Shown: piece after piece, positions 3,123-32,904 of the stretch
Position numbering within the stretch: the stretch's first letter is position 1
How the letters are laid out: every line of letters begins with the position of its first letter
Source: a virus
Strand: one strand, 5' to 3'
Virus record (IMG/VR): IMGVR_UViG_3300035190_000431
Span: 1-34,212 of that record
DNA: 34,212 nucleotides
Notes under the pieces: generated by a model
The model's database searches: none
Seen by the model: the letters and a program-made list of their open reading frames with translations, nothing else
What the model was told of the DNA's origin: nothing
Program-made: the position numbers and the translations under genes

Positions 3123-3935
3123 TTAATCTGTACAGAAGCCGCCTTGGCATCCAGAACCGCCACCGTAATTAAAATCAAGTTGCAATCCTAATTTTTCAAT
3201 GTTTTGGTATAAAATTCCATTTTTCCACGTCCCCTTCGCTTTAATTTCCTGGTTAACAAACCATTGCATTTTGTTTTTATTTAAATCAAAATTTTTTCTA
3301 AGCTGTTGTTTTGATTTATGGAAACAACCTACGCAGTTGCTGTCTTCAGGAAAATCAATGTTTGTTTTATTAGCCCAGACTTTTACTGGCAAATTTGTGA
3401 TTTTATTTTCAATCAGTGGAAAATAACCTTCTCGCCATTCGATGTCCTTCCATTTATTGCGCCCGTTACTTGATTTACCTACTACACCTTTAAATGTACT
3501 TGTAAATCTTTCGGCTCGTTCCATTTCGTCCCATCGGTAACCTATGCCCATTTTTATTTTTTCATTAATGTTATTGTACCACCAGTTCCAAATTGGTCGC
3601 ATTTTCATTTCTGAAGTACAGAATCTTGTTAATGAGCTAGGTAACATTTGTTTTTTATTTATAATTGATTCGAATGAATCCCCTGCAACCCAAATGATTT
3701 CGTTTCCTATTAATTGTTCGAGGTCAAAAATTACTTTTAAAGTTTTGTCGTCCTCAACAGTAGCAATAAATTCCTTGCCTATTTTATCCGAAACTTTTTT
3801 AATTAAAATTTTATCATTTGGGCTGCAGTTTTTATCTTCTATTGTAACCAATGAAAACAAATTAAAATCAGCTGGATAATGTACCGCCATAAATGAAGAA
3901 GTTTTTCCGCCTGATAATGAATTAATTGTTTTCAT
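3123..3935 (-). CDS. PP-loop ATPase of the PAPS-reductase/DndC-like superfamily
   Basis: 270 residues. The N-terminal SLSGGKTSS (residues 6-14) is the N-type ATP pyrophosphatase loop, which activates a substrate by adenylylation. Cysteines C106 (RFCTSEMK), C201 and C204 (NCVGCFHKS), C263 and C268 (GCQGGFCTD) resemble the metal or Fe-S ligating Cys of phage-type PAPS-reductase-like proteins. Family members are often labelled phosphoadenosine phosphosulfate reductase, but a sulfur-assimilation role is doubtful for a lone phage gene. Alternatives are thio- or deazapurine-like modification of nucleic acid. It overlaps the start region of the upstream PD-(D/E)XK gene's end by 14 bases. Confidence 0.75.
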   Translation of the reverse strand: MKTINSLSGGKTSSFMAVHYPADFNLFSLVTIEDKNCSPNDKILIKKVSDKIGKEFIATVEDDKTLKVIFDLEQLIGNEIIWVAGDSFESIINKKQMLPSSLTRFCTSEMKMRPIWNWWYNNINEKIKMGIGYRWDEMERAERFTSTFKGVVGKSSNGRNKWKDIEWREGYFPLIENKITNLPVKVWANKTNIDFPEDSNCVGCFHKSKQQLRKNFDLNKNKMQWFVNQEIKAKGTWKNGILYQNIEKLGLQLDFNYGGGSGCQGGFCTD

Positions 3936-4248
3936 TCAATAAAGTTTTTAAATCATTTAATAAATCCTTTGAATTTTTTGCCGTGTAACGTAATAATTTA
4001 AAACCCATTAAACTCGCTCGGTTATACTTTTCACAATTCGCAGTGTAACCAGTCAACGTTTGATGCCCGCCCATCCCGCTCCAATGATTACCGCCCATGC
4101 CTTCGAATTCAATTAAGCAATTAAACTCTAAAATATAGTAGTCGGATTTCCAACGTCTAGAAATATCAAATCGAAATTCCTGAGCAAGAGTTAAATTATA
4201 CGCGCGGCAAAATAGATTTATATCTATTTCAAAAACTTTTTTACTCAT
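3922..4248 (-). CDS. PD-(D/E)XK nuclease-like protein (Vsr/DUF559-like)
   Basis: 108 residues with the pattern of small phage PD-(D/E)XK nucleases: EFRFDISRRWKSDYY (Asp36 in the first acidic strand), LIEFEGMGG (Glu47/Glu49), the His-containing loop GMGGHQTLTG, then YTANCEKYNRASLMGF and the closing strand KLLRYTAKN. Homologues typically read as RRWRFDFAW...EIEGG...CEKYNAA..GW.VLRFT. It sits directly after the exonuclease/RecT pair, consistent with a Holliday-junction or repair nuclease, though a mobile-endonuclease origin is possible. Its start overlaps the end of the upstream YqaJ-like gene by 8 bases. Confidence 0.72.
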   Translation of the reverse strand: MSKKVFEIDINLFCRAYNLTLAQEFRFDISRRWKSDYYILEFNCLIEFEGMGGNHWSGMGGHQTLTGYTANCEKYNRASLMGFKLLRYTAKNSKDLLNDLKTLLNENN

Positions 4249-4939
4249 TTGAAAATAAATTTAAGTTCATCCACTCCCTACACTCCAAAACTCTGTTATT
4301 AATCGCCTGGATAGTTTCCTCGTTCCGCTCTATTTCAATTTCGAAAACTCGTTCCGCAACTGGAATATCTTCATAAATTGATAAGCGGTCAATTTCTTCG
4401 CAGGCCGTCAGATATTCGATGGCTTCCATATCGGGGCAATTCATTTTAAACCAAAGTGATTTCTTTTCCTGTTCAATTAAATTAAGTGGCGTATTTACTA
4501 AACAATATGCGACGGTAGCGGATTTGGCCCCCGTAAGGGCCATGTATCCGTGTACTTGAAAATAATAATCTTTGTTTAAACTTTCGTTCTTTGATTTAAA
4601 GAAACTGAAAATGTCCCAGCTCGTTTTTATATCCGTAACGATTTCATTCTTTAAAATGTCCCATTCTCCCGTAATAAATTCGTTCGACATTCTTGCTTTA
4701 TTATTTACAAAGTAATTTTTTTTAAACTTTGAATAAAGAGTAATCGATTCTTCCTCTTGCGAGATTCCTTTCTCTAGGTATTTATTTTGAACGTTTTTCG
4801 ATCTTCCGTATTTCTCATTAATAAAAACTTTTATTAATTCACTTTTGCAAGTTTCAGAAAGGTTTTCGGTTTTCTTTTTGGATTCCGTCATTAACGCACC
4901 AAGTGAGCTGCACCTGAATTTTATTTTATCCGCGTTCAT
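4241..4939 (-). CDS. YqaJ-type viral recombinase (lambda-exonuclease-like)
   Basis: 232 residues. The 5'-3' dsDNA exonuclease makes 3' single-stranded tails for RecT annealing. Visible signature: an N-terminal RCSSLGALMTES, an acidic KGISQEEESI helix, the catalytic GEWDI (Asp94) and VTDIKTS (Asp103, Lys105), then YYFQVHGYMALTG with the conserved Gln and Tyr. Length fits the family. It overlaps RecT by 4 bases (ATGA type), as expected for coupled partners. An ACCCCT motif occurs 8 bases before its ATG, inside the RecT coding end. Confidence 0.88.
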   Translation of the reverse strand: MNADKIKFRCSSLGALMTESKKKTENLSETCKSELIKVFINEKYGRSKNVQNKYLEKGISQEEESITLYSKFKKNYFVNNKARMSNEFITGEWDILKNEIVTDIKTSWDIFSFFKSKNESLNKDYYFQVHGYMALTGAKSATVAYCLVNTPLNLIEQEKKSLWFKMNCPDMEAIEYLTACEEIDRLSIYEDIPVAERVFEIEIERNEETIQAINNRVLECREWMNLNLFSNE

Positions 4940-5796
4940 TTTTCAGCAGGGGTTAGGTTCATGTATTTTTCTTGAAACAATTGGCTAAGTTCCTCAGGAA
5001 TTGAACTGGCATAAACTTCCAGTTCTTCGATCGATTCCGACGTTTCGATTAAATGTTTTAATCTTTCAATTTCTGGGTTAACTTTTATTTCTTCGTGATC
5101 AACGTAGGTAACGTCATCGCCATTCTCGTCATTAATTACCGCTTGGTCAATTTTTACGGCCGTTTGCATTTCGATTGAAAGTATTCCCCATTTCGATAGT
5201 GTCGACTTAAGCACCGTCTTCTTTGCCATCGCATCAAAATCCGATTTCCAGGGTCCGTTATTAAAACTTTTCGAATAACGTTTACCATGTTGAGCTACTT
5301 TCTCAGTAGTCCAGAAACATGTTTTTTCGAATCCATTTATTAATTTAAAATAAGCAGCGTAACCAATTATTTTGCCTTCACCTGGAAGATCAAAATTGGC
5401 ATTTAAATTTTCCGTTAAAGTATTGAATGATTCGAATTGATTTTCGTAGACTTCAATAACATTAATGTTTAGGTATTGACCAGACCGCTGGGCAAGTTGT
5501 ACTAATCCTTTTACGCCTAGTTGAAACTGGGCTGCCTTCCCGTAAGGTACGATCCATGCAAATCCGAGATTCTGGTTAATTGGTAAATCCAATGTAGCAG
5601 CCATTAAGGCCGCGTTGTAAACCGAAATCGGGTCCGCATTTTTCAACATTGAATTATTCGCGGTAATCTGCAGAATTGAACTGATAAATTGAGTAGATCG
5701 TTTTCCGATTACTTCCGCAAATTTATTTTTGACTGCTGGTTTTTCGAAGAAAGTTTTAATTGTATTTTCGATCTTCATTGGGGTTTTGTTTTCCAT
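4936..5796 (-). CDS. recT: RecT-family single-strand annealing protein
   Basis: 286 residues that bind ssDNA and anneal complementary strands during recombination and replication. Recognisable features: the N-terminal helical region with FISSILQITANNS, DPISVYNAALMAATLDLPIN, the core AAQFQLGVKGLVQLAQRSGQ, and FDAMAKKTVLKSTLSKWG. The C-terminal about 60 residues are acidic and variable as usual. It forms an operon with the exonuclease just downstream. ACCCCTG lies 5 bases before the ATG at 5796. A second ACCCC lies just before an in-frame ATG at codon 7 (about 5778), so that start cannot be excluded. Confidence 0.93.
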   Translation of the reverse strand: MENKTPMKIENTIKTFFEKPAVKNKFAEVIGKRSTQFISSILQITANNSMLKNADPISVYNAALMAATLDLPINQNLGFAWIVPYGKAAQFQLGVKGLVQLAQRSGQYLNINVIEVYENQFESFNTLTENLNANFDLPGEGKIIGYAAYFKLINGFEKTCFWTTEKVAQHGKRYSKSFNNGPWKSDFDAMAKKTVLKSTLSKWGILSIEMQTAVKIDQAVINDENGDDVTYVDHEEIKVNPEIERLKHLIETSESIEELEVYASSIPEELSQLFQEKYMNLTPAEK

Positions 5797-6937: not shown

Positions 6938-7276
6938 TTAGTTTTTTACTTGGTATGGTTTATTCCATTCGCCCACCGTTATCCAAACATAATGCGAAGG
7001 TTGCGATCCATAATCGCATGTTTCACGCCATTCAGTTCCAACGCTCGCTATTTCATAAACTTTTGAAAGTAGATTAGCTTGGGCCCCAGAATAATGCTCG
7101 TTAATATAATACTCGTTGATTTGTTTGTAATCAGCTTCGAAATTTACATTCGAAGATAAAATTGCAATGCGAACGCCAGAATAATGTTCACGTCGAATTG
7201 AAAATTTCACTTTTGGAAATTGAGTTTTCAGATTAGTTCTGATTTCTTTTACTTTCTCAGTTGAAATGTAAGCCAT
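6938..7276 (-). CDS. LPD29-like small protein, first gene of the replication operon
   Basis: 112 residues. The N-terminal pattern STEKVKEIRTNLKTQFPKVK followed by FSIRREHYSGVRIAI resembles the LPD29-type domain (large polyvalent protein associated domain 29) seen alone in many phages; the middle repeats an EHYSGA element and the C-terminus is aromatic (SHYVWITVGEWNKPY). Function unknown. It is the first gene after the promoter at 7324-7352, with a leader of about 45 bases carrying AACCCCT. Confidence 0.6.
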   Translation of the reverse strand: MAYISTEKVKEIRTNLKTQFPKVKFSIRREHYSGVRIAILSSNVNFEADYKQINEYYINEHYSGAQANLLSKVYEIASVGTEWRETCDYGSQPSHYVWITVGEWNKPYQVKN

Positions 7277-7323
7277 AATTTTGAATTTTTAAAGGGGTTA
7301 AAATTTGATTGATTTGATATATT

Positions 7324-7352
7324 CAAAGATAGATGTTTTCTATCATTCCCAA
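7324..7352 (-). promoter_or_regulatory. Early promoter with an overlapping inverted-repeat operator
   Basis: On the minus strand: TTG (7352-7350), an 18-base spacer, TATCTTTG (7331-7324), matching the Bacteroidota consensus TTG-N17-23-TAnnTTTG. The -7 element is embedded in GATAG-N7-CTATC (7328-7344), found again at the promoter at 10069. Transcription from here would cover 7276 down through dnaB to the terminator at 32822-32851. Confidence 0.72.
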
Positions 7353-7427
7353 CGCCGTCGTTGAATTTATTTTAAAATAACTGCTAAGTGATTGATTATT
7401 AATACGTATAATTTCATTTTAGGTCGT
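7353..7427. other. AT-rich non-coding spacer between terminator and promoter
   Basis: Seventy-five bases with no credible reading frame, containing the short palindromes ATTTTAAAAT and ATACGTAT. It separates the terminator of the regulatory operon from the replication-operon promoter. It could hold an upstream activator site, but nothing decisive is visible. Confidence 0.4.
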
Positions 7428-7460
7428 AAAAAAGCCCCAAAAAGGTTAGGTTTTCAGGGC
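7428..7460 (-). terminator. Intrinsic terminator of the regulatory operon
   Basis: The minus strand reads GCCCTGAAAA, a 7-base loop CCTAACC, TTTTTGGGGC, then six T. All ten positions pair when two G-U wobbles are allowed. It follows the 28-codon gene and precedes the next promoter, so it marks a clean transcript boundary. Confidence 0.85.
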
Positions 7461-7490
7461 GATTCATTCCTTTAAAATGTAGGTTTTTGG

Positions 7491-7577
7491 TCAATCTGGA
7501 TCGAAATCCGTTAAATGAATGGTTAAAAAGAACATTGAAATAGCCAGCACAAACGATCCAATTATAAAGGTTAGCAT
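7491..7577 (-). CDS. 28-residue single-pass membrane microprotein
   Basis: The frame begins MLTFIIGSFVLAISMFFLTI and ends HLTDFDPD. One hydrophobic helix of about 20 residues with a short acidic tail fits a small inner-membrane protein. Its start overlaps the stop of the upstream gene as ATGCTAA, typical of coupled translation, and the operon terminator lies about 30 bases beyond its stop. Homology cannot be judged at this length; a regulatory, antiholin or superinfection role is possible but unproven. Confidence 0.5.
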   Translation of the reverse strand: MLTFIIGSFVLAISMFFLTIHLTDFDPD

Positions 7578-7864
7578 ATTACTTCGAATAAATGATGTAT
7601 TATGTTTCCCTCATGTTGGGACAAGGTCGCTACATGCTTTAAAAAATAGTCTGGATCGGAATTATTAAAAGCTCGACCAGTTCCGATGTCCTGAAATATT
7701 CGTACTTCCGTTTCCTTTTCTTCTTGGTTACACATGAAATAAACTGAAATCGTCTGGTCCTTTTCATTTATAATTGAAGATAAGAAAACCGATCCACGTA
7801 AAACGTTAATTGTCCAGCGTTGGTCATTCTGGGGCAGGGAATGTTTAATAATTACTTTGTTCAT
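7571..7864 (-). CDS. DUF7352-like protein
   Basis: 97 residues. The layout (an N-terminal strand KVIIKHSLPQND, RGSVFLSSI, VYFMCNQ, ETEVRIFQDIGTGR and the C-terminal HHLFEV) matches small DUF7352-type phage proteins, which usually read as leakage of a compact beta domain with a conserved GTG. Function unknown. It overlaps the DUF3127 gene by 4 bases and the membrane microprotein by 7. Confidence 0.6.
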   Translation of the reverse strand: MNKVIIKHSLPQNDQRWTINVLRGSVFLSSIINEKDQTISVYFMCNQEEKETEVRIFQDIGTGRAFNNSDPDYFLKHVATLSQHEGNIIHHLFEVIC

Positions 7865-8130
7865 AGCTTTGAAATTTTCCAGGCGTTAACTTTTGTGAAA
7901 TACTTATCATTGTACTCGCGGCTTTCAACATTGACTGAAACGTTTAGCTTATCGTTTAACTGGATTCCATTTAGTAAATTGATCTTATCGCCAAATAAGC
8001 TGACGGCTACGGGTTTCGGGTACTGTCCCTCCTGTTCAACTATTATTGTTTGGTTGGACCAATCGCCACCGCCATTTTTTTGTCCAGATTCAATTGGTAA
8101 AATTTTGATTAATGTTCCTGTGATTTCCAT
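7861..8130 (-). CDS. DUF3127 protein, OB-fold, probable ssDNA-binding
   Basis: 89 residues very close to the DUF3127 pattern: MEITGTLIKILPIESGQ, a Trp-containing NGGGDWSNQTIIVEQ, QYPKPVAVSLFGDKI, LNVSVNVESREYNDKYFT and a final KVNAWKI. DUF3127 proteins of Bacteroidota and their phages are OB-fold-like and are thought to act as ssDNA-binding proteins. No other SSB is visible in the window, so this is the best candidate for the phage replication SSB (inference). Confidence 0.82.
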   Translation of the reverse strand: MEITGTLIKILPIESGQKNGGGDWSNQTIIVEQEGQYPKPVAVSLFGDKINLLNGIQLNDKLNVSVNVESREYNDKYFTKVNAWKISKL

Positions 8131-8134
8131 GTTT

Positions 8135-8524
8135 TTAATTTGTTTTTTGTTTATACTCGTATACTGGTTTTTCTGCTTTCCCTTTATTCTTTCCGTTGAA
8201 CTTTCTTTTGTCGATCATTGAATCCATTTTGTCGCAAAGTTCGTTATTCAATTTTTGGTATTTCTTAAGGATTGTTTTTAAATAATCAACGTTAATAAAT
8301 TGATTCTGCACCTGGTTACGTAGATCGGAAATCATTTCCGCCTGTTCACTTATTACATTATTCAAATGTGATCTATGCCGTTTCAATTCGGCGTTCTCTA
8401 AAAATAAATCGTTTTCCATTTTTTGAAGTTTTGAATTTTTCTTTTTTAAATAATTGTTTTGTATTACCTGGATCGAAATCGTTGCGACTGCCCCAGAATA
8501 AAATAAAATATGTATTGCGCTCAT
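8135..8524 (-). CDS. Membrane-anchored coiled-coil protein
   Basis: 129 residues: an N-terminal hydrophobic helix (about 3-22, IHILFYSGAVATISIQVIQ), then a long heptad-rich region (about 25-105) with many Leu, Lys and Glu, and a basic tail. The topology suggests an inner-membrane anchor with a cytoplasmic coiled coil. No family recognised. It overlaps the XRE regulator by 4 bases, so they are coexpressed. A membrane or partner-binding role for early infection is possible. Confidence 0.6.
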   Translation of the reverse strand: MSAIHILFYSGAVATISIQVIQNNYLKKKNSKLQKMENDLFLENAELKRHRSHLNNVISEQAEMISDLRNQVQNQFINVDYLKTILKKYQKLNNELCDKMDSMIDKRKFNGKNKGKAEKPVYEYKQKTN

Positions 8525-8724
8525 TTCTTTGTTTTTTTTATTTTTAATTTATTCAATGCGTTAATTATTATTTCCGCATAATCATTCGAACAATTCCGAA
8601 AACCGCTTTCAATATGTGAAATGTACTTTCCGTTTTGTAGTCCTATTTCCCTGCCGAGTTGATCCTGCGTAACGTCAAGCTCCCGCCTTAATTTCCTTAT
8701 CCGCATTCCGTTTTCTGTTTTCAT
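8521..8724 (-). CDS. XRE/Cro-family helix-turn-helix regulator
   Basis: 67 residues, almost entirely one HTH_3-type domain: MRIRKLRRELDVTQDQLGRE, IGLQNGKYISHIESGFRNCS, and a final helix with a Lys-rich tail. Length fits a Cro-like protein without an oligomerisation or peptidase domain. It is the leading candidate to bind the GATAG-N7-CTATC repeat over the promoters at 7324 and 10069, which would make it an autorepressor that also controls replication genes. This pairing is inferred from context only. Confidence 0.85.
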   Translation of the reverse strand: MKTENGMRIRKLRRELDVTQDQLGREIGLQNGKYISHIESGFRNCSNDYAEIIINALNKLKIKKTKK

Positions 8725-9158
8725 ATATCGTTATTTCTTCTCATGTCGTAAAGTTCATCTGGATCGGGTCCTTCGTCCGATGGGTCGAAATCTTCAAGTT
8801 CTATTATTTTTTCCTCGATTTCATTTAAGCTTTCAACTGAAAGCAGATATAGTACATTTCGTCCTTTGTAAATAATTGAATGAAATTCAAAGTCGATTGA
8901 ATCGGGGTGATCCATCAATCCAGGTTGAAATTCAAAATGGTAGTGTACCGTAATAATTCTTCCCAAAAATATTATGCTTCTGTTCATGTTTTTTAAAGTT
9001 TGTTTTCTTTTTAATTCCTTTGAAATATGTACGTTCAATGTTCCAACTGGAACGCTGAAAATTTTCGAAATTGATTCAACGGTTTCGTTTCCGCTTTTCC
9101 TGAAGTAATACCTTATCGCTTCATTCAATTTTTTTAAATCGTATTTAATTGGATTCAT
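8721..9158 (-). CDS. HTH-containing early protein of unknown function
   Basis: 145 residues from the ATG at 9158 (MNPIKYDLKKLNEAI). In-frame ATGs at 9170 and 9185 would lengthen it but overlap the upstream 58-codon gene more deeply, so I prefer 9158. Near the N-terminus, NETVESISKIFSVPVGTLNV followed by HISKELKRKQ looks like an HTH. The C-terminal half is beta-rich with a FLGRIITVHYHFEF strand and an acidic end. It overlaps the XRE gene by 4 bases. A second DNA-binding early regulator is plausible. Confidence 0.6.
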   Translation of the reverse strand: MNPIKYDLKKLNEAIRYYFRKSGNETVESISKIFSVPVGTLNVHISKELKRKQTLKNMNRSIIFLGRIITVHYHFEFQPGLMDHPDSIDFEFHSIIYKGRNVLYLLSVESLNEIEEKIIELEDFDPSDEGPDPDELYDMRRNNDI

Positions 9159-9321
9159 AAAAACTTTCATAGGTAACCCGTGCATTAACTAAATCATTCA
9201 ACGCATCAATTAAATTATCAGCTTCAATTCTTTGATCGCTTGTTAAATAATCAATCTGCATCAAATCAAATAGCTGTAATTTATAATTTTCAATTATTAA
9301 GTCGAGAGTTTTGTTTTTCAT
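9145..9321 (-). CDS. 58-residue hypothetical protein
   Basis: The minus-strand frame from the ATG at 9321 reads MKNKTLDLIIENYKLQLFDL and on to VTYESFYESN, ending at a TAA at 9145. It fills an otherwise empty gap, has an A/T-rich leader (TTTAATTTAATTAAA) before the ATG like other genes here, and is acidic and helical. No family recognised. Its end overlaps the HTH gene start by 14 bases. Confidence 0.6.
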   Translation of the reverse strand: MKNKTLDLIIENYKLQLFDLMQIDYLTSDQRIEADNLIDALNDLVNARVTYESFYESN

Positions 9322-9326
9322 TTTAA

Positions 9327-9812
9327 TTAAATTAAACCGTTAGCAGCAAATGAAGTAAATCCGTTATCCTGGGTTAATATTAGATGGTCCAGCAATACTA
9401 TGTCAAACAACTTCAATCCGTCTTTTATATCCTTAGTTATTTTTATATCCGCATCGCTTGGTTTTACATTTCCAGATGGGTGGTTGTGGCATAAAATTAC
9501 CGCCTGTGCATTCGATAAAATGGCCAATCTAGCAATATATTGTTTGTCAACAACTACCTGTGATGCTGCACCTTCGCCACAGTTTACAACTCCCAAAACT
9601 TGGTTTGCCCGCGTCAATAAAATAATTGAAAATATTTCCCGCTGCTCATACATTTCCGTGTTAATGTACCATTGATGCATAAAATTAAAAATGTCATCTT
9701 CATTTTTAATTACCGCTCTGTCTTTCACTTTTACTTTTGTACTGTACTTCGCAGAAATATCGCAGATGTGCGATACGTCTTTTAATAATTGATTTAATTT
9801 AGGTTTGATCAT
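9327..9812 (-). CDS. radC: RadC-like JAMM-domain protein
   Basis: 161 residues covering the RadC/JAB domain only, without the N-terminal helix-hairpin-helix of chromosomal RadC. Motifs: QREIFSIILLT with the conserved Glu (about 59), VNCGEGAASQVVVD, then the metal-binding CHNHPSGNVKPSDAD with H109, H111, S119 and D122, followed by FDIVLLDHLIL. A zinc protease or DNA-processing role is proposed for the family but unproven. Such proteins are common near phage early regions. AACCCCTTAAAA lies 15 bases before the ATG. Confidence 0.9.
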   Translation of the reverse strand: MIKPKLNQLLKDVSHICDISAKYSTKVKVKDRAVIKNEDDIFNFMHQWYINTEMYEQREIFSIILLTRANQVLGVVNCGEGAASQVVVDKQYIARLAILSNAQAVILCHNHPSGNVKPSDADIKITKDIKDGLKLFDIVLLDHLILTQDNGFTSFAANGLI

Positions 9813-9846
9813 TACAATTGAATTTTAAGGGGTTGTTTGATTTGAA

Positions 9847-10041
9847 TTAAAGTTGTTTTTCGAATTGAATGAATTCCGCTTCAGTCATTCGATCAAAAAG
9901 TATGTCGATTATAACTTGTGAAACAAGGTCCGCAGCATCGGAATAATCAAGCATCAATTTTTTATATTCCTGGATTAAATCATTTGTGGGAATTCCAGCA
10001 AATTTCACTGTTGCAATTTTTGTAAATTCTAAAGTTGTCAT
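9847..10041 (-). CDS. Small hypothetical protein, first gene of the regulatory operon
   Basis: 64 residues from the ATG at 10041 (MTTLEFTKIATVKFAGIPTN). The open frame extends upstream to a TTG at 10146, but that extension contains the promoter at 10069-10101 and an ACCCC motif just before the ATG, so translation most likely begins at 10041. The protein is acidic and helical, ending DRMTEAEFIQFEKQL. No family recognised. Confidence 0.62.
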   Translation of the reverse strand: MTTLEFTKIATVKFAGIPTNDLIQEYKKLMLDYSDAADLVSQVIIDILFDRMTEAEFIQFEKQL

Positions 10042-10068
10042 TTCGTTTGGGGTTTTAATTTGATCTGT

Positions 10069-10101
10069 CAAAGATAGAATAATACTATCGAATAATGCAA
10101 A
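10069..10101 (-). promoter_or_regulatory. Early promoter with an overlapping inverted-repeat operator
   Basis: Minus strand: TTTG (10101-10098), 21-base spacer, TATCTTTG (10076-10069), an excellent Bacteroidota promoter. GATAG-N7-CTATC (10073-10089) overlaps the -7 element exactly as at 7324. Downstream, ATCAAAT and AACCCC precede the ATG at 10041, as in the other early leader. Confidence 0.78.
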
Positions 10102-11027: not shown

Positions 11028-11597
11028 TTAAATTTGCCTTGTTGCTTTTTTAACTAGATTGTGAATCGACTTGTCTAACTGCTCAACTGATAAGTTAACC
11101 ATTTCGAGCAATTTAATATTTTCTTCGTCCGTACTTGTAAAATCCTTTTCTATTAACATTTTAACCAGTCCAGCGATACTCGTCAACGGCTGACGTAATT
11201 CATGCGACAGCATAAAGCGGAAATCTTCCAGGAGCTGTTTTTGTTTTTCATGCTCATGTGAAGTTATCGACGTTACATCCGTTATTGGCAAACCTACAAA
11301 GTGTAATGAATTCAGGATAAAATAAATGTTCCATAAATTCCAGCGCGTTGATCCATTTTTTTGTTTTGTTTTTGCGTAGAATCGAATTGGTAACGGTCCA
11401 CTTTCTTTTGCCTTATTAACTGAATTAACAAAATCAGTTAAATCAGCACTGTCAGAAATTATTTCGCTAACATTTTTCGGTTTAATGTGACTTGTGTATT
11501 CTTTAAATAGGTCATTGCTTCCAATTATAGCACCGCTTTCATCCGTCACTAAATAAAATAAATCGATTGAATTGGTAAGAATATATCTTGTGCTCAT
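11028..11597 (-). CDS. PAS + HisKA (DHp) protein without a kinase ATPase domain
   Basis: 189 residues. Residues about 10-108 look like a PAS sensor (DLFYLVTDESGAIIGSNDLF, later WNIYFILNSLHFVGLPITDV). Residues about 118-186 are a full dimerisation and phosphotransfer domain: FRFMLSHELRQPLTSIAGLV has His132 in a perfect H-box, and the second helix LLEMVNLSVEQLDKSIHNLV follows. The gene stops there by a normal TAA and no HATPase domain follows in any minus frame; the next gene begins 6 bases on. The protein can be phosphorylated by, or pair with, a host kinase but cannot phosphorylate itself. A phage decoy or modulator of host two-component signalling is my inference. Confidence 0.85.
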   Translation of the reverse strand: MSTRYILTNSIDLFYLVTDESGAIIGSNDLFKEYTSHIKPKNVSEIISDSADLTDFVNSVNKAKESGPLPIRFYAKTKQKNGSTRWNLWNIYFILNSLHFVGLPITDVTSITSHEHEKQKQLLEDFRFMLSHELRQPLTSIAGLVKMLIEKDFTSTDEENIKLLEMVNLSVEQLDKSIHNLVKKATRQI

Positions 11598-31473: not shown

Positions 31474-32211
31474 TTAAACTCCTTTTAACGGAATTCTTAA
31501 AATAGGGTTAAAATCAAATTTTCTTCTGCTCGTTGAATCTTTCTGAATAATTTTTGATCCCCATTTTTTTTGTAACAATAAAAACTGTTCCGTTTCTTTT
31601 TGAATATTTCTATACGTCGCACAACCGCCAGATTGTTCCGCCTGTTTTACGTCATAATTCGCAAAATTGATTCGTAAACATCCGCCGTATTCTTTTATGT
31701 GTTGAAGCGTAATATCGTAATCCTCTTTTAATGGTAAAGTTTCATCGTATCGAATTGAACTTTTTAGGTGGGCCTGGAATGGACCGCCAATGTATTGTAA
31801 AGTTCCAAACGGGGTATGTTCCCTATAAGCACCTTTGTCCTGCACACAATTCAAGCCCCAGAATTTAAATCCGTAATCCTCGCACAAAATCGCCATCTGT
31901 TCCGCGAATTCAATTAATTGATCTCCGTCAAACTTTATTTTTTTTTGCCCGTCCCATCTGTAAACTCCCTTACAGTCGTCATCCATCAAAACAATACAGT
32001 CGCAATCTTCAAAATAATTATCTAAAATGTAATTTCGAATTTTACACAAATTACCCTGAGCAGAATCGGGTACTATTACTATTTCGTTTCCGTTCTGGAT
32101 ATATTCTTCGGCATCACTTTCTCGCACAATTAATTTAATAAATGGGTAATTAATTTGCGTAATACTTTTTTCAGGCCGTTTATAACTTGGCGCATAAAAT
32201 TTAACCTTCAT
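31474..32211 (-). CDS. GT-A-like glycosyltransferase, TAGT-like
   Basis: 245 residues from the ATG at 32211 (MKVKFYAPSYKRP); a longer ATG at 32250 exists but would deepen the overlap with the ParB-like gene to 50 bases. VLMDDDCKGVYRW with DDD at about 77-79 is the metal-binding motif of GT-A enzymes, and TLPLKEDYDITLQ lies in the acceptor region. This resembles the TET-associated glycosyltransferase type found in phages that glycosylate modified bases. No base hydroxylase or hydroxymethylase was seen in the window, so the acceptor is unclear. Its ParB-like partner lies immediately upstream. Confidence 0.7.
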   Translation of the reverse strand: MKVKFYAPSYKRPEKSITQINYPFIKLIVRESDAEEYIQNGNEIVIVPDSAQGNLCKIRNYILDNYFEDCDCIVLMDDDCKGVYRWDGQKKIKFDGDQLIEFAEQMAILCEDYGFKFWGLNCVQDKGAYREHTPFGTLQYIGGPFQAHLKSSIRYDETLPLKEDYDITLQHIKEYGGCLRINFANYDVKQAEQSGGCATYRNIQKETEQFLLLQKKWGSKIIQKDSTSRRKFDFNPILRIPLKGV

Positions 32212-32806
32212 TTGAGCTCGATTTAATTTTAATAATCGCTTCCGTTCCATCGATCACTCGTCCAACTCCTTTGCTCCAGGGCTTTCCGTTTGCACGTTTC
32301 GAATGGGTACTTTTCAATCCAAAAATTGATTGTACTTGTAACCAATCGATGTCCGTCGAAAACTTTAAAACAATGTAATTACTTTCTTGGTCCAATTCAT
32401 TACTGAATATTATTTCGCCATCTTCCGTCGGTTCTTTACTTTCTGGAAGATCAAGGCCCCAAAGTTCAAGTTCTTCGGTATTCCAATTTTCGGCCAGGTC
32501 GTGAAAATCCCATTCACCGTATCCTACGTTATCCTTAATTATAAACTCCCGTTGTTGTTCTTCGGTAAGGTCTCCTGCAAGTATCACTGGAATTTCCGTC
32601 AGTTTCGCCTCTTTGCAAGCTTTTAAGCGCATATTTCCGCCCAGCACTACATTATCCTCATTTATAACTATCGGCCGTAATTTTAACATTTCAGGAAAAT
32701 TCTTAATTGAATTAACCAGCTTTAAAAATTTGTCGTCTTTAATTATTCGTGGATTGTTGGGGTTCGGTTTAATATCCGAAATCTTATAAAGTTTTGTTTC
32801 GATCAT
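32201..32806 (-). CDS. ParB-like (Srx/ParB N-domain) protein, first late gene
   Basis: 201 residues: ISDIKPNPNNPR (9-20), KLRPIVINEDNVVLGGNMRL (about 42-61) with the ParB/Srx-fold GGNMRL loop, then EVPVILAGDLTEEQQREF-like text and a C-terminal domain. Phage ParB-domain proteins often pair with DNA-modification enzymes. No ParA and no parS-like repeat are seen, so plasmid partition is unlikely. It overlaps the glycosyltransferase by 11 bases. Confidence 0.8.
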   Translation of the reverse strand: MIETKLYKISDIKPNPNNPRIIKDDKFLKLVNSIKNFPEMLKLRPIVINEDNVVLGGNMRLKACKEAKLTEIPVILAGDLTEEQQREFIIKDNVGYGEWDFHDLAENWNTEELELWGLDLPESKEPTEDGEIIFSNELDQESNYIVLKFSTDIDWLQVQSIFGLKSTHSKRANGKPWSKGVGRVIDGTEAIIKIKSSSNEG

Positions 32807-32810
32807 TCAA

Positions 32811-32818
32811 CAAAGTTA
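32811..32818 (-). promoter_or_regulatory. Possible -7 element of the late promoter
   Basis: TAACTTTG on the minus strand fits TAnnTTTG and ends 4 bases before the ATG at 32806, which would give an almost leaderless transcript. No convincing -33 TTG at the right spacing was found, and the site abuts the terminator. Confidence 0.3.
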
Positions 32819-32821
32819 AAT

Positions 32822-32851
32822 AAAAAAAGCCGAACGAATAAACGAACGGCT
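32822..32851 (-). terminator. Intrinsic terminator of the replication operon
   Basis: Minus strand AGCCG..CG, loop TTTATT, CG..CGGCT, followed by TTTTTTT. The 5-bp outer stem and 2-bp inner stem flank a TT mismatch pair. It follows the 110-residue gene and precedes the first late gene. Confidence 0.75.
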
Positions 32852-32904
32852 ATAATCAAACGGCGTAACCCCTTACGCGAATTCAAAACTTGAATGCAAA
32901 GTTA
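32852..32904 (-). other. Hairpin-rich non-coding segment after the replication operon
   Basis: Upstream of the terminator the minus strand also has TTCAAGTTTTGAA and the perfect GCGTAA-GGGG-TTACGC hairpin (32863-32878). A TAACTTTG occurs at 32904-32897 but lacks a well-spaced -33. Together with the terminator this could be a small RNA of about 70-80 bases or only 3'-UTR structure. Confidence 0.45.

Follow-up and report, generated by a model that had tools for sequence, protein, structure and literature searches.

A conserved inverted repeat over two early promoters of an uncultivated phage clade, a probable operator of a Cro-like XRE protein

In bacteriophage lambda, the OL and OR regions provide three operators per promoter, a CI-type repressor is encoded and the half-site differs from the one described here. 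The locus analysed in this study resembles the system of lambda Cro, a protein of 66 aa (PMC7286687), in that it encodes a small single-domain HTH protein in an early operon, carries 17-bp operators over two early promoters and would bring about an early shut-off. In contrast to lambda, each promoter has one operator, both promoters read on one strand, a CI-type repressor is absent and the operator overlaps a -7 box of the Bacteroidota type. The temperate betatectivirus GIL01 has two early promoters and a late one (P1, P2 and P3) and is kept silent by the host LexA together with the phage protein gp7 (PMC6182141). The phage analysed here also has two early promoters and a late one, with a putative control of early genes by a repressor; its regulator, however, is probably an XRE protein of the phage, and nothing implies a host factor. 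Controller proteins of restriction-modification systems (C.Esp1396I, C.BclI) are likewise small XRE autoregulators acting on inverted repeats, whereas the operator described here is a different one and its protein would control phage operons. Riemerella GDF21 and Leeuwenhoekiella Arctus_1 share a RecT with about 66% DNA identity and recombination modules of the DUF3127/SSB type; unlike the present phage, they have temperate layouts, with integrases and, on both strands, HTH or S24 repressor genes.

A preliminary description of this DNA had called a two-promoter early switch without integrase unusual. This was an overstatement, since early regulators that control two early promoters through a single operator sequence are already known (the lambda principle, with Cro) and the integrase-free GIL01 has two early promoters under one repressor. 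New would be the combination of a lone Cro-like protein, single operators on a Bacteroidota -7 box, co-directional promoters and no CI. A search of the open literature found no description of such a circuit, which does not prove its absence.

Genome organisation and early operons

The window, i.e. the whole analysed stretch of 34,212 bases, represents a complete phage with a direct terminal repeat of 127 bases. Terminal repeats of 121-127 bases were also found in four relatives, and the map is therefore circular. A DnaB-like gene is split by the contig end (33895-34212 and 1-127, with the 127-base terminal overlap). All identifiable genes (terminase, portal, capsid protease, RecT, exonuclease, endolysin and others) lie on the minus strand, and no divergent promoter of the lambdoid-switch type was found among the identified genes of the window. 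Judging from the promoter type (TTTG / TAnnTTTG) and from the closest cultured relatives of RecT and SSB, the host would be a member of the Bacteroidota, probably of the Flavobacteriia.

The regulatory operon behind P2 encodes, in some genomes, a RadC-like protein, followed by the 145-aa HTH protein, the XRE protein, a 129-aa protein, the SSB-like DUF3127 protein and a DUF7352 protein. P1 is located 90 bases further on than the strong terminator of this operon and is followed by a co-directional chain with the LPD29 protein, RecT and the exonuclease, which extends from 7276 across the contig end to DnaB; this strongly supports the replication operon described earlier. The LPD29 gene follows P1 in genome G004 and P2 in genome G005, and both operators stay. 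More generally, the genes adjoining P1 and P2 (6938-7276, 9327-9812 and 9847-10041) are exchanged between relatives, as if the promoters were fixed docking points. The coordinates of all relevant features are given in Table 1.

Table 1. Positions of regulatory elements and genes in the window.
Feature	Position	Strand	Remarks
Promoter P1, TTG-N18-TATCTTTG	7324-7352	-	serves the replication/recombination operon
Operator O1, GATAG-AAAACAT-CTATC	7328-7344	-	-25 to -9 of P1; kept in all near-complete genomes of the clade
Promoter P2, TTTG-N21-TATCTTTG	10069-10101	-	serves the regulatory operon 10041-7571
Operator O2, GATAG-TATTATT-CTATC	10073-10089	-	-25 to -9 of P2; kept in the clade
Late promoter-like -7 box, TAACTTTG	32811-32818	-	behind a hairpin and T-run (terminator-like) at the start of the late module; 10/10 genomes
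XRE (HTH_3) protein, 67 aa	8521-8724	-	proposed operator-binding autorepressor (Pfam, PHROG repressor hits, model)
Second HTH protein, 145 aa	8721-9158	-	overlaps start of XRE gene by 4 bases; competing candidate or partner
RadC-like JAB protein	9327-9812	-	accessory, P2 operon; PF04002, 115 bits; among the relatives' loci only in L007
DUF3127 single-strand DNA binding protein	7861-8130	-	P2 operon
Intrinsic terminator of P2 operon	7434-7460	-	upstream of P1; 10-pair stem, then TTTTTT
LPD29-domain protein	6938-7276	-	first gene after P1; behind P2 instead in L007
RecT-like annealing protein	4936-5796	-	P1 operon; phrog_148, 275 bits
Exonuclease	4241-4939	-	P1 operon; phrog_5715, 165 bits

The absence of an integrase held in a wider set: tyrosine integrases (PF00589) were found in 0 of 18 records and serine recombinases (PF00239) in 0 of 10 genomes. 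A second XRE or CI-type repressor was not detected either, each of ten genomes having one HTH_3 protein. Searches of GTDB genomes with XRE and RecT revealed no match of close identity and no integrated relative. These results are in line with a strictly lytic phage that would shut off its early genes; a carrier state maintained by XRE is a less probable alternative.

Three further gene products were recorded in the window. A PAPS-reductase-like protein (phrog_424, 3123-3935) is encoded within the early operon, a glycosyltransferase-like protein (phrog_842, 31474-32250) adjoins the terminase genes, and a PAS protein with a truncated histidine-kinase-like part (phrog_10912 kinase, 11028-11597), conserved to 87-90% in the clade, lies in the late/lysis region.

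The inverted repeat and its conservation

A pattern search for GATAG-N7-CTATC in the window revealed exactly two copies, one at each early promoter, and no scattered third copy. Read on the minus strand, both copies correspond to GATAGnnnnnnnCTATC-TTTG, in which CTATC merges into the -7 box TATCTTTG, so that four of the five right-arm bases are part of this box. The box itself is found at 7331-7324 and 10076-10069 and nowhere else in the window. Upstream of it, TTG follows at a distance of 18 bases in P1 and TTTG at 21 bases in P2. Scanning this region for sigma-70 promoters yielded no more than chance, as expected for promoters of the Bacteroidota type.

For mapped promoters of Flavobacterium johnsoniae, the published description places TAHHTTTG at T-12 to G-5 and A/T-rich motifs with centres at -18 and -28 (PMC6847099). 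By this numbering, both copies of the repeat occupy -25 to -9, in agreement with the earlier statement that the same 17-bp repeat covers the -7 element of both promoters, and transcripts would start near 7319 (P1) and 10064 (P2). An RNA hairpin or attenuator formed by the repeat was considered and rejected, because the repeat lies upstream of these presumed start sites. Counted in the same way, the late transcript would start at 32806, on the first base (A) of the ATG that opens the ParB-like gene, and would be leaderless, also in several relatives. The late site, within 32806-32860, has neither the GATAG operator nor a TTG at the -33 distance in any of ten genomes; lacking a -33 element, it may need an activator.

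Twelve relatives were retrieved with the XRE protein as query, and searches with RecT, SSB and terminase led to the same uncultivated clade. Its near-complete set consists of the window and nine other genomes (G001-G007, G010 and G011). Each of these nine has exactly two exact copies of the repeat, at P1 and P2, and the same is true of the fragment G009, which spans both promoters. Loss of the repeat was not seen in any of them; the idea of an operator thus withstood two of the refuting conditions set out beforehand, scattered copies and loss in relatives. Altogether, 24 distinct sites were compared; neither the arms nor the -7 box vary, apart from a single GGTAG at P2 of the fragment L014. 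The preliminary description had held that only the arms and their spacing are conserved. The N7 sequences do differ, with 15 forms at the 24 sites, but their composition is restricted to 96% A/T. N7 coincides with the A/T-rich -18 element of the F. johnsoniae description, which would explain a sequence that is variable yet rich in A/T. The upstream flanks of P1 and P2 within one genome differ in 7-18 of 22 bases. Arms that remain invariant in the clade while N7 and flanks diverge strongly support the proposal, made from sequence, that the repeat is a protein-binding site.

The fully specified P2 pattern, TTTG-N8-GATAG-N7-CTATCTTTG, was found in 10 contigs out of 2.9 million in IMG/VR, all belonging to this clade. 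The bare GATAG-N7-CTATC occurs in at least 120 stretches of IMG/VR; among the matches listed, most are located inside ORFs and are unrelated; on its own, the bare pattern therefore lacks diagnostic value. In dinucleotide shuffles (n=300), a mean of 0.017 exact copies was obtained and two copies in 0 of 300. Twelve other arm sequences, mostly A/T-only, also form perfect 5-7-5 inverted repeats at least twice in the window, and such a repeat occurring twice is not rare in itself. It is the conservation in relatives that lifts GATAG-N7-CTATC above chance, and the shuffles alone were not leaned on.

Candidate binding proteins

The 67-aa regulator predicted earlier in the first operon was confirmed as an XRE protein by its match to PF01381 (HTH_3; 28.4 bits, cut-off 23), the sole HTH_3 match above cut-off in 10 of 10 genomes. 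In those relatives whose locus includes P2, its gene follows this promoter and so lies within the operon that it would control. The XRE sequences of these close relatives are 78-91% identical, with a near invariant recognition region (GLQ[NS]GKYISH[IV]ESG). The structure model, of moderate confidence, shows four helices in the usual small XRE bundle. The closest folds in Foldseek are C-proteins, P22 c2 and 434 Cro, all with E-values above 0.2 and thus of low significance; C.Esp1396I and C.BclI, with weak scores, are among the closest solved sequences and folds. An R-M gene pair was seen neither next to the XRE gene nor among the 30 window proteins compared with PHROGs, although the ParB-like protein best matches a methyltransferase-associated family.

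The second HTH protein, alone or together with XRE, might instead read the operator as part of a two-protein regulator in which one partner may act as antirepressor or co-repressor. The gene of this protein overlaps the XRE gene and is present in the loci of all relatives, its HTH segment (VPVGTLNV.I..ELKRKQ) is highly conserved, and its model has a three-helix N-terminal domain (pLDDT about 65-84). Against this, the identity of 66-79% within the clade is below that of XRE, the model is poor beyond residue 53, which made the Foldseek search with it uninformative, and searches assigned the protein to no known DNA-binding family and found no cultured relative. We regard this reading as unlikely. 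A tblastn search of cultured phages revealed homologues of neither protein.

Conservation cannot separate the two proteins, because they co-occur everywhere. Alignments of XRE, HTH, RecT, SSB and TerL contained no distant relatives and returned the same tight clade throughout, so the binder cannot be fixed by covariation of the arms with a recognition helix. The single arm change, in L014, goes along with an XRE recognition helix identical to that of L013, whose site is exact. In no relative do the arms change along with either of the proteins, which leaves both as candidate binders, with XRE preferred.

Proposed circuit and alternative readings

Based on the sequence comparisons, we consider it likely that an early regulator encoded by the phage uses GATAG-N7-CTATC as its operator in a Cro-like autorepressor circuit, the 67-aa XRE protein being the most probable candidate. 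That XRE binds, that it represses and when it does so are inferred. The centres of the arms are 12 bp apart, about one helical turn, which would place both arms on one face of the DNA, and an XRE dimer would set one recognition helix on each 5-bp arm. Such a dimer over -25 to -9 would cover the -7 box and block the host RNA polymerase. Early in infection, P1 and P2 would be open, P1 providing recombination and replication proteins and P2 the SSB-like protein, the second HTH protein and XRE. Rising XRE would then close P1 as well as its own promoter, and transcription would pass to the late promoter at 32.8 kb, which has no operator. Being made from P2, XRE would limit itself and P1 jointly and leave the late promoter free. 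The best explanation of the circuit is thus a negative-feedback early shut-off and not a lysogeny switch.

With the same binder, XRE could play another role, that of a lysogeny-type repressor of an extrachromosomal carrier state. A dedicated repressor-operator pair without integrase, the circular maps and the protein with a ParB-like domain are in line with this; however, the repressor gene has no visible operator-free promoter, a second XRE or CI-type protein is lacking, the ParB domain fits best to the methyltransferase-associated family mentioned above and no ParA was seen. This role appears improbable. That the one protein and its two sites form a self-contained switch, by which an integrase-free Bacteroidota phage would either replicate or persist silently in an extrachromosomal carrier state, with neither CI nor integrase nor host LexA involved, seems a little less probable still.

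A host repressor of the LexA or SOS type could also bind the site and keep the phage silent, by analogy to LexA and gp7 in GIL01, which is likewise free of an integrase and has two early promoters sharing one site (PMC6182141). We consider this highly unlikely, as the promoter-operator pattern is restricted to one phage clade and the phage encodes an XRE protein of its own. That GATAG is a promoter element for a host sigma factor and its palindrome with CTATC incidental is the least probable reading and hardly to be expected: the share of the right arm in the -7 box and the normal occurrence of an A/T-rich motif around -18 in Flavobacterium would suit it, but the available part of the F. johnsoniae promoter description names only A/T-rich motifs and no GATAG at -25 (PMC6847099), the conserved late promoter has no GATAG, and the arm match is exact in all but one of the 24 sites.

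Little has been described of how transcription is controlled in phages of Bacteroidota, the promoters of which depart from the sigma-70 type. The clade offers a clean comparative case in which the arms of an operator stay constant and the spacer of the promoter drifts. With a well-delimited operator, present twice per genome and in 24 distinct natural variants, and an obvious candidate protein, early control in this group becomes directly testable, and the proposed Cro-like XRE regulator and its operator may provide a repressor-operator pair for Flavobacterium genetics.
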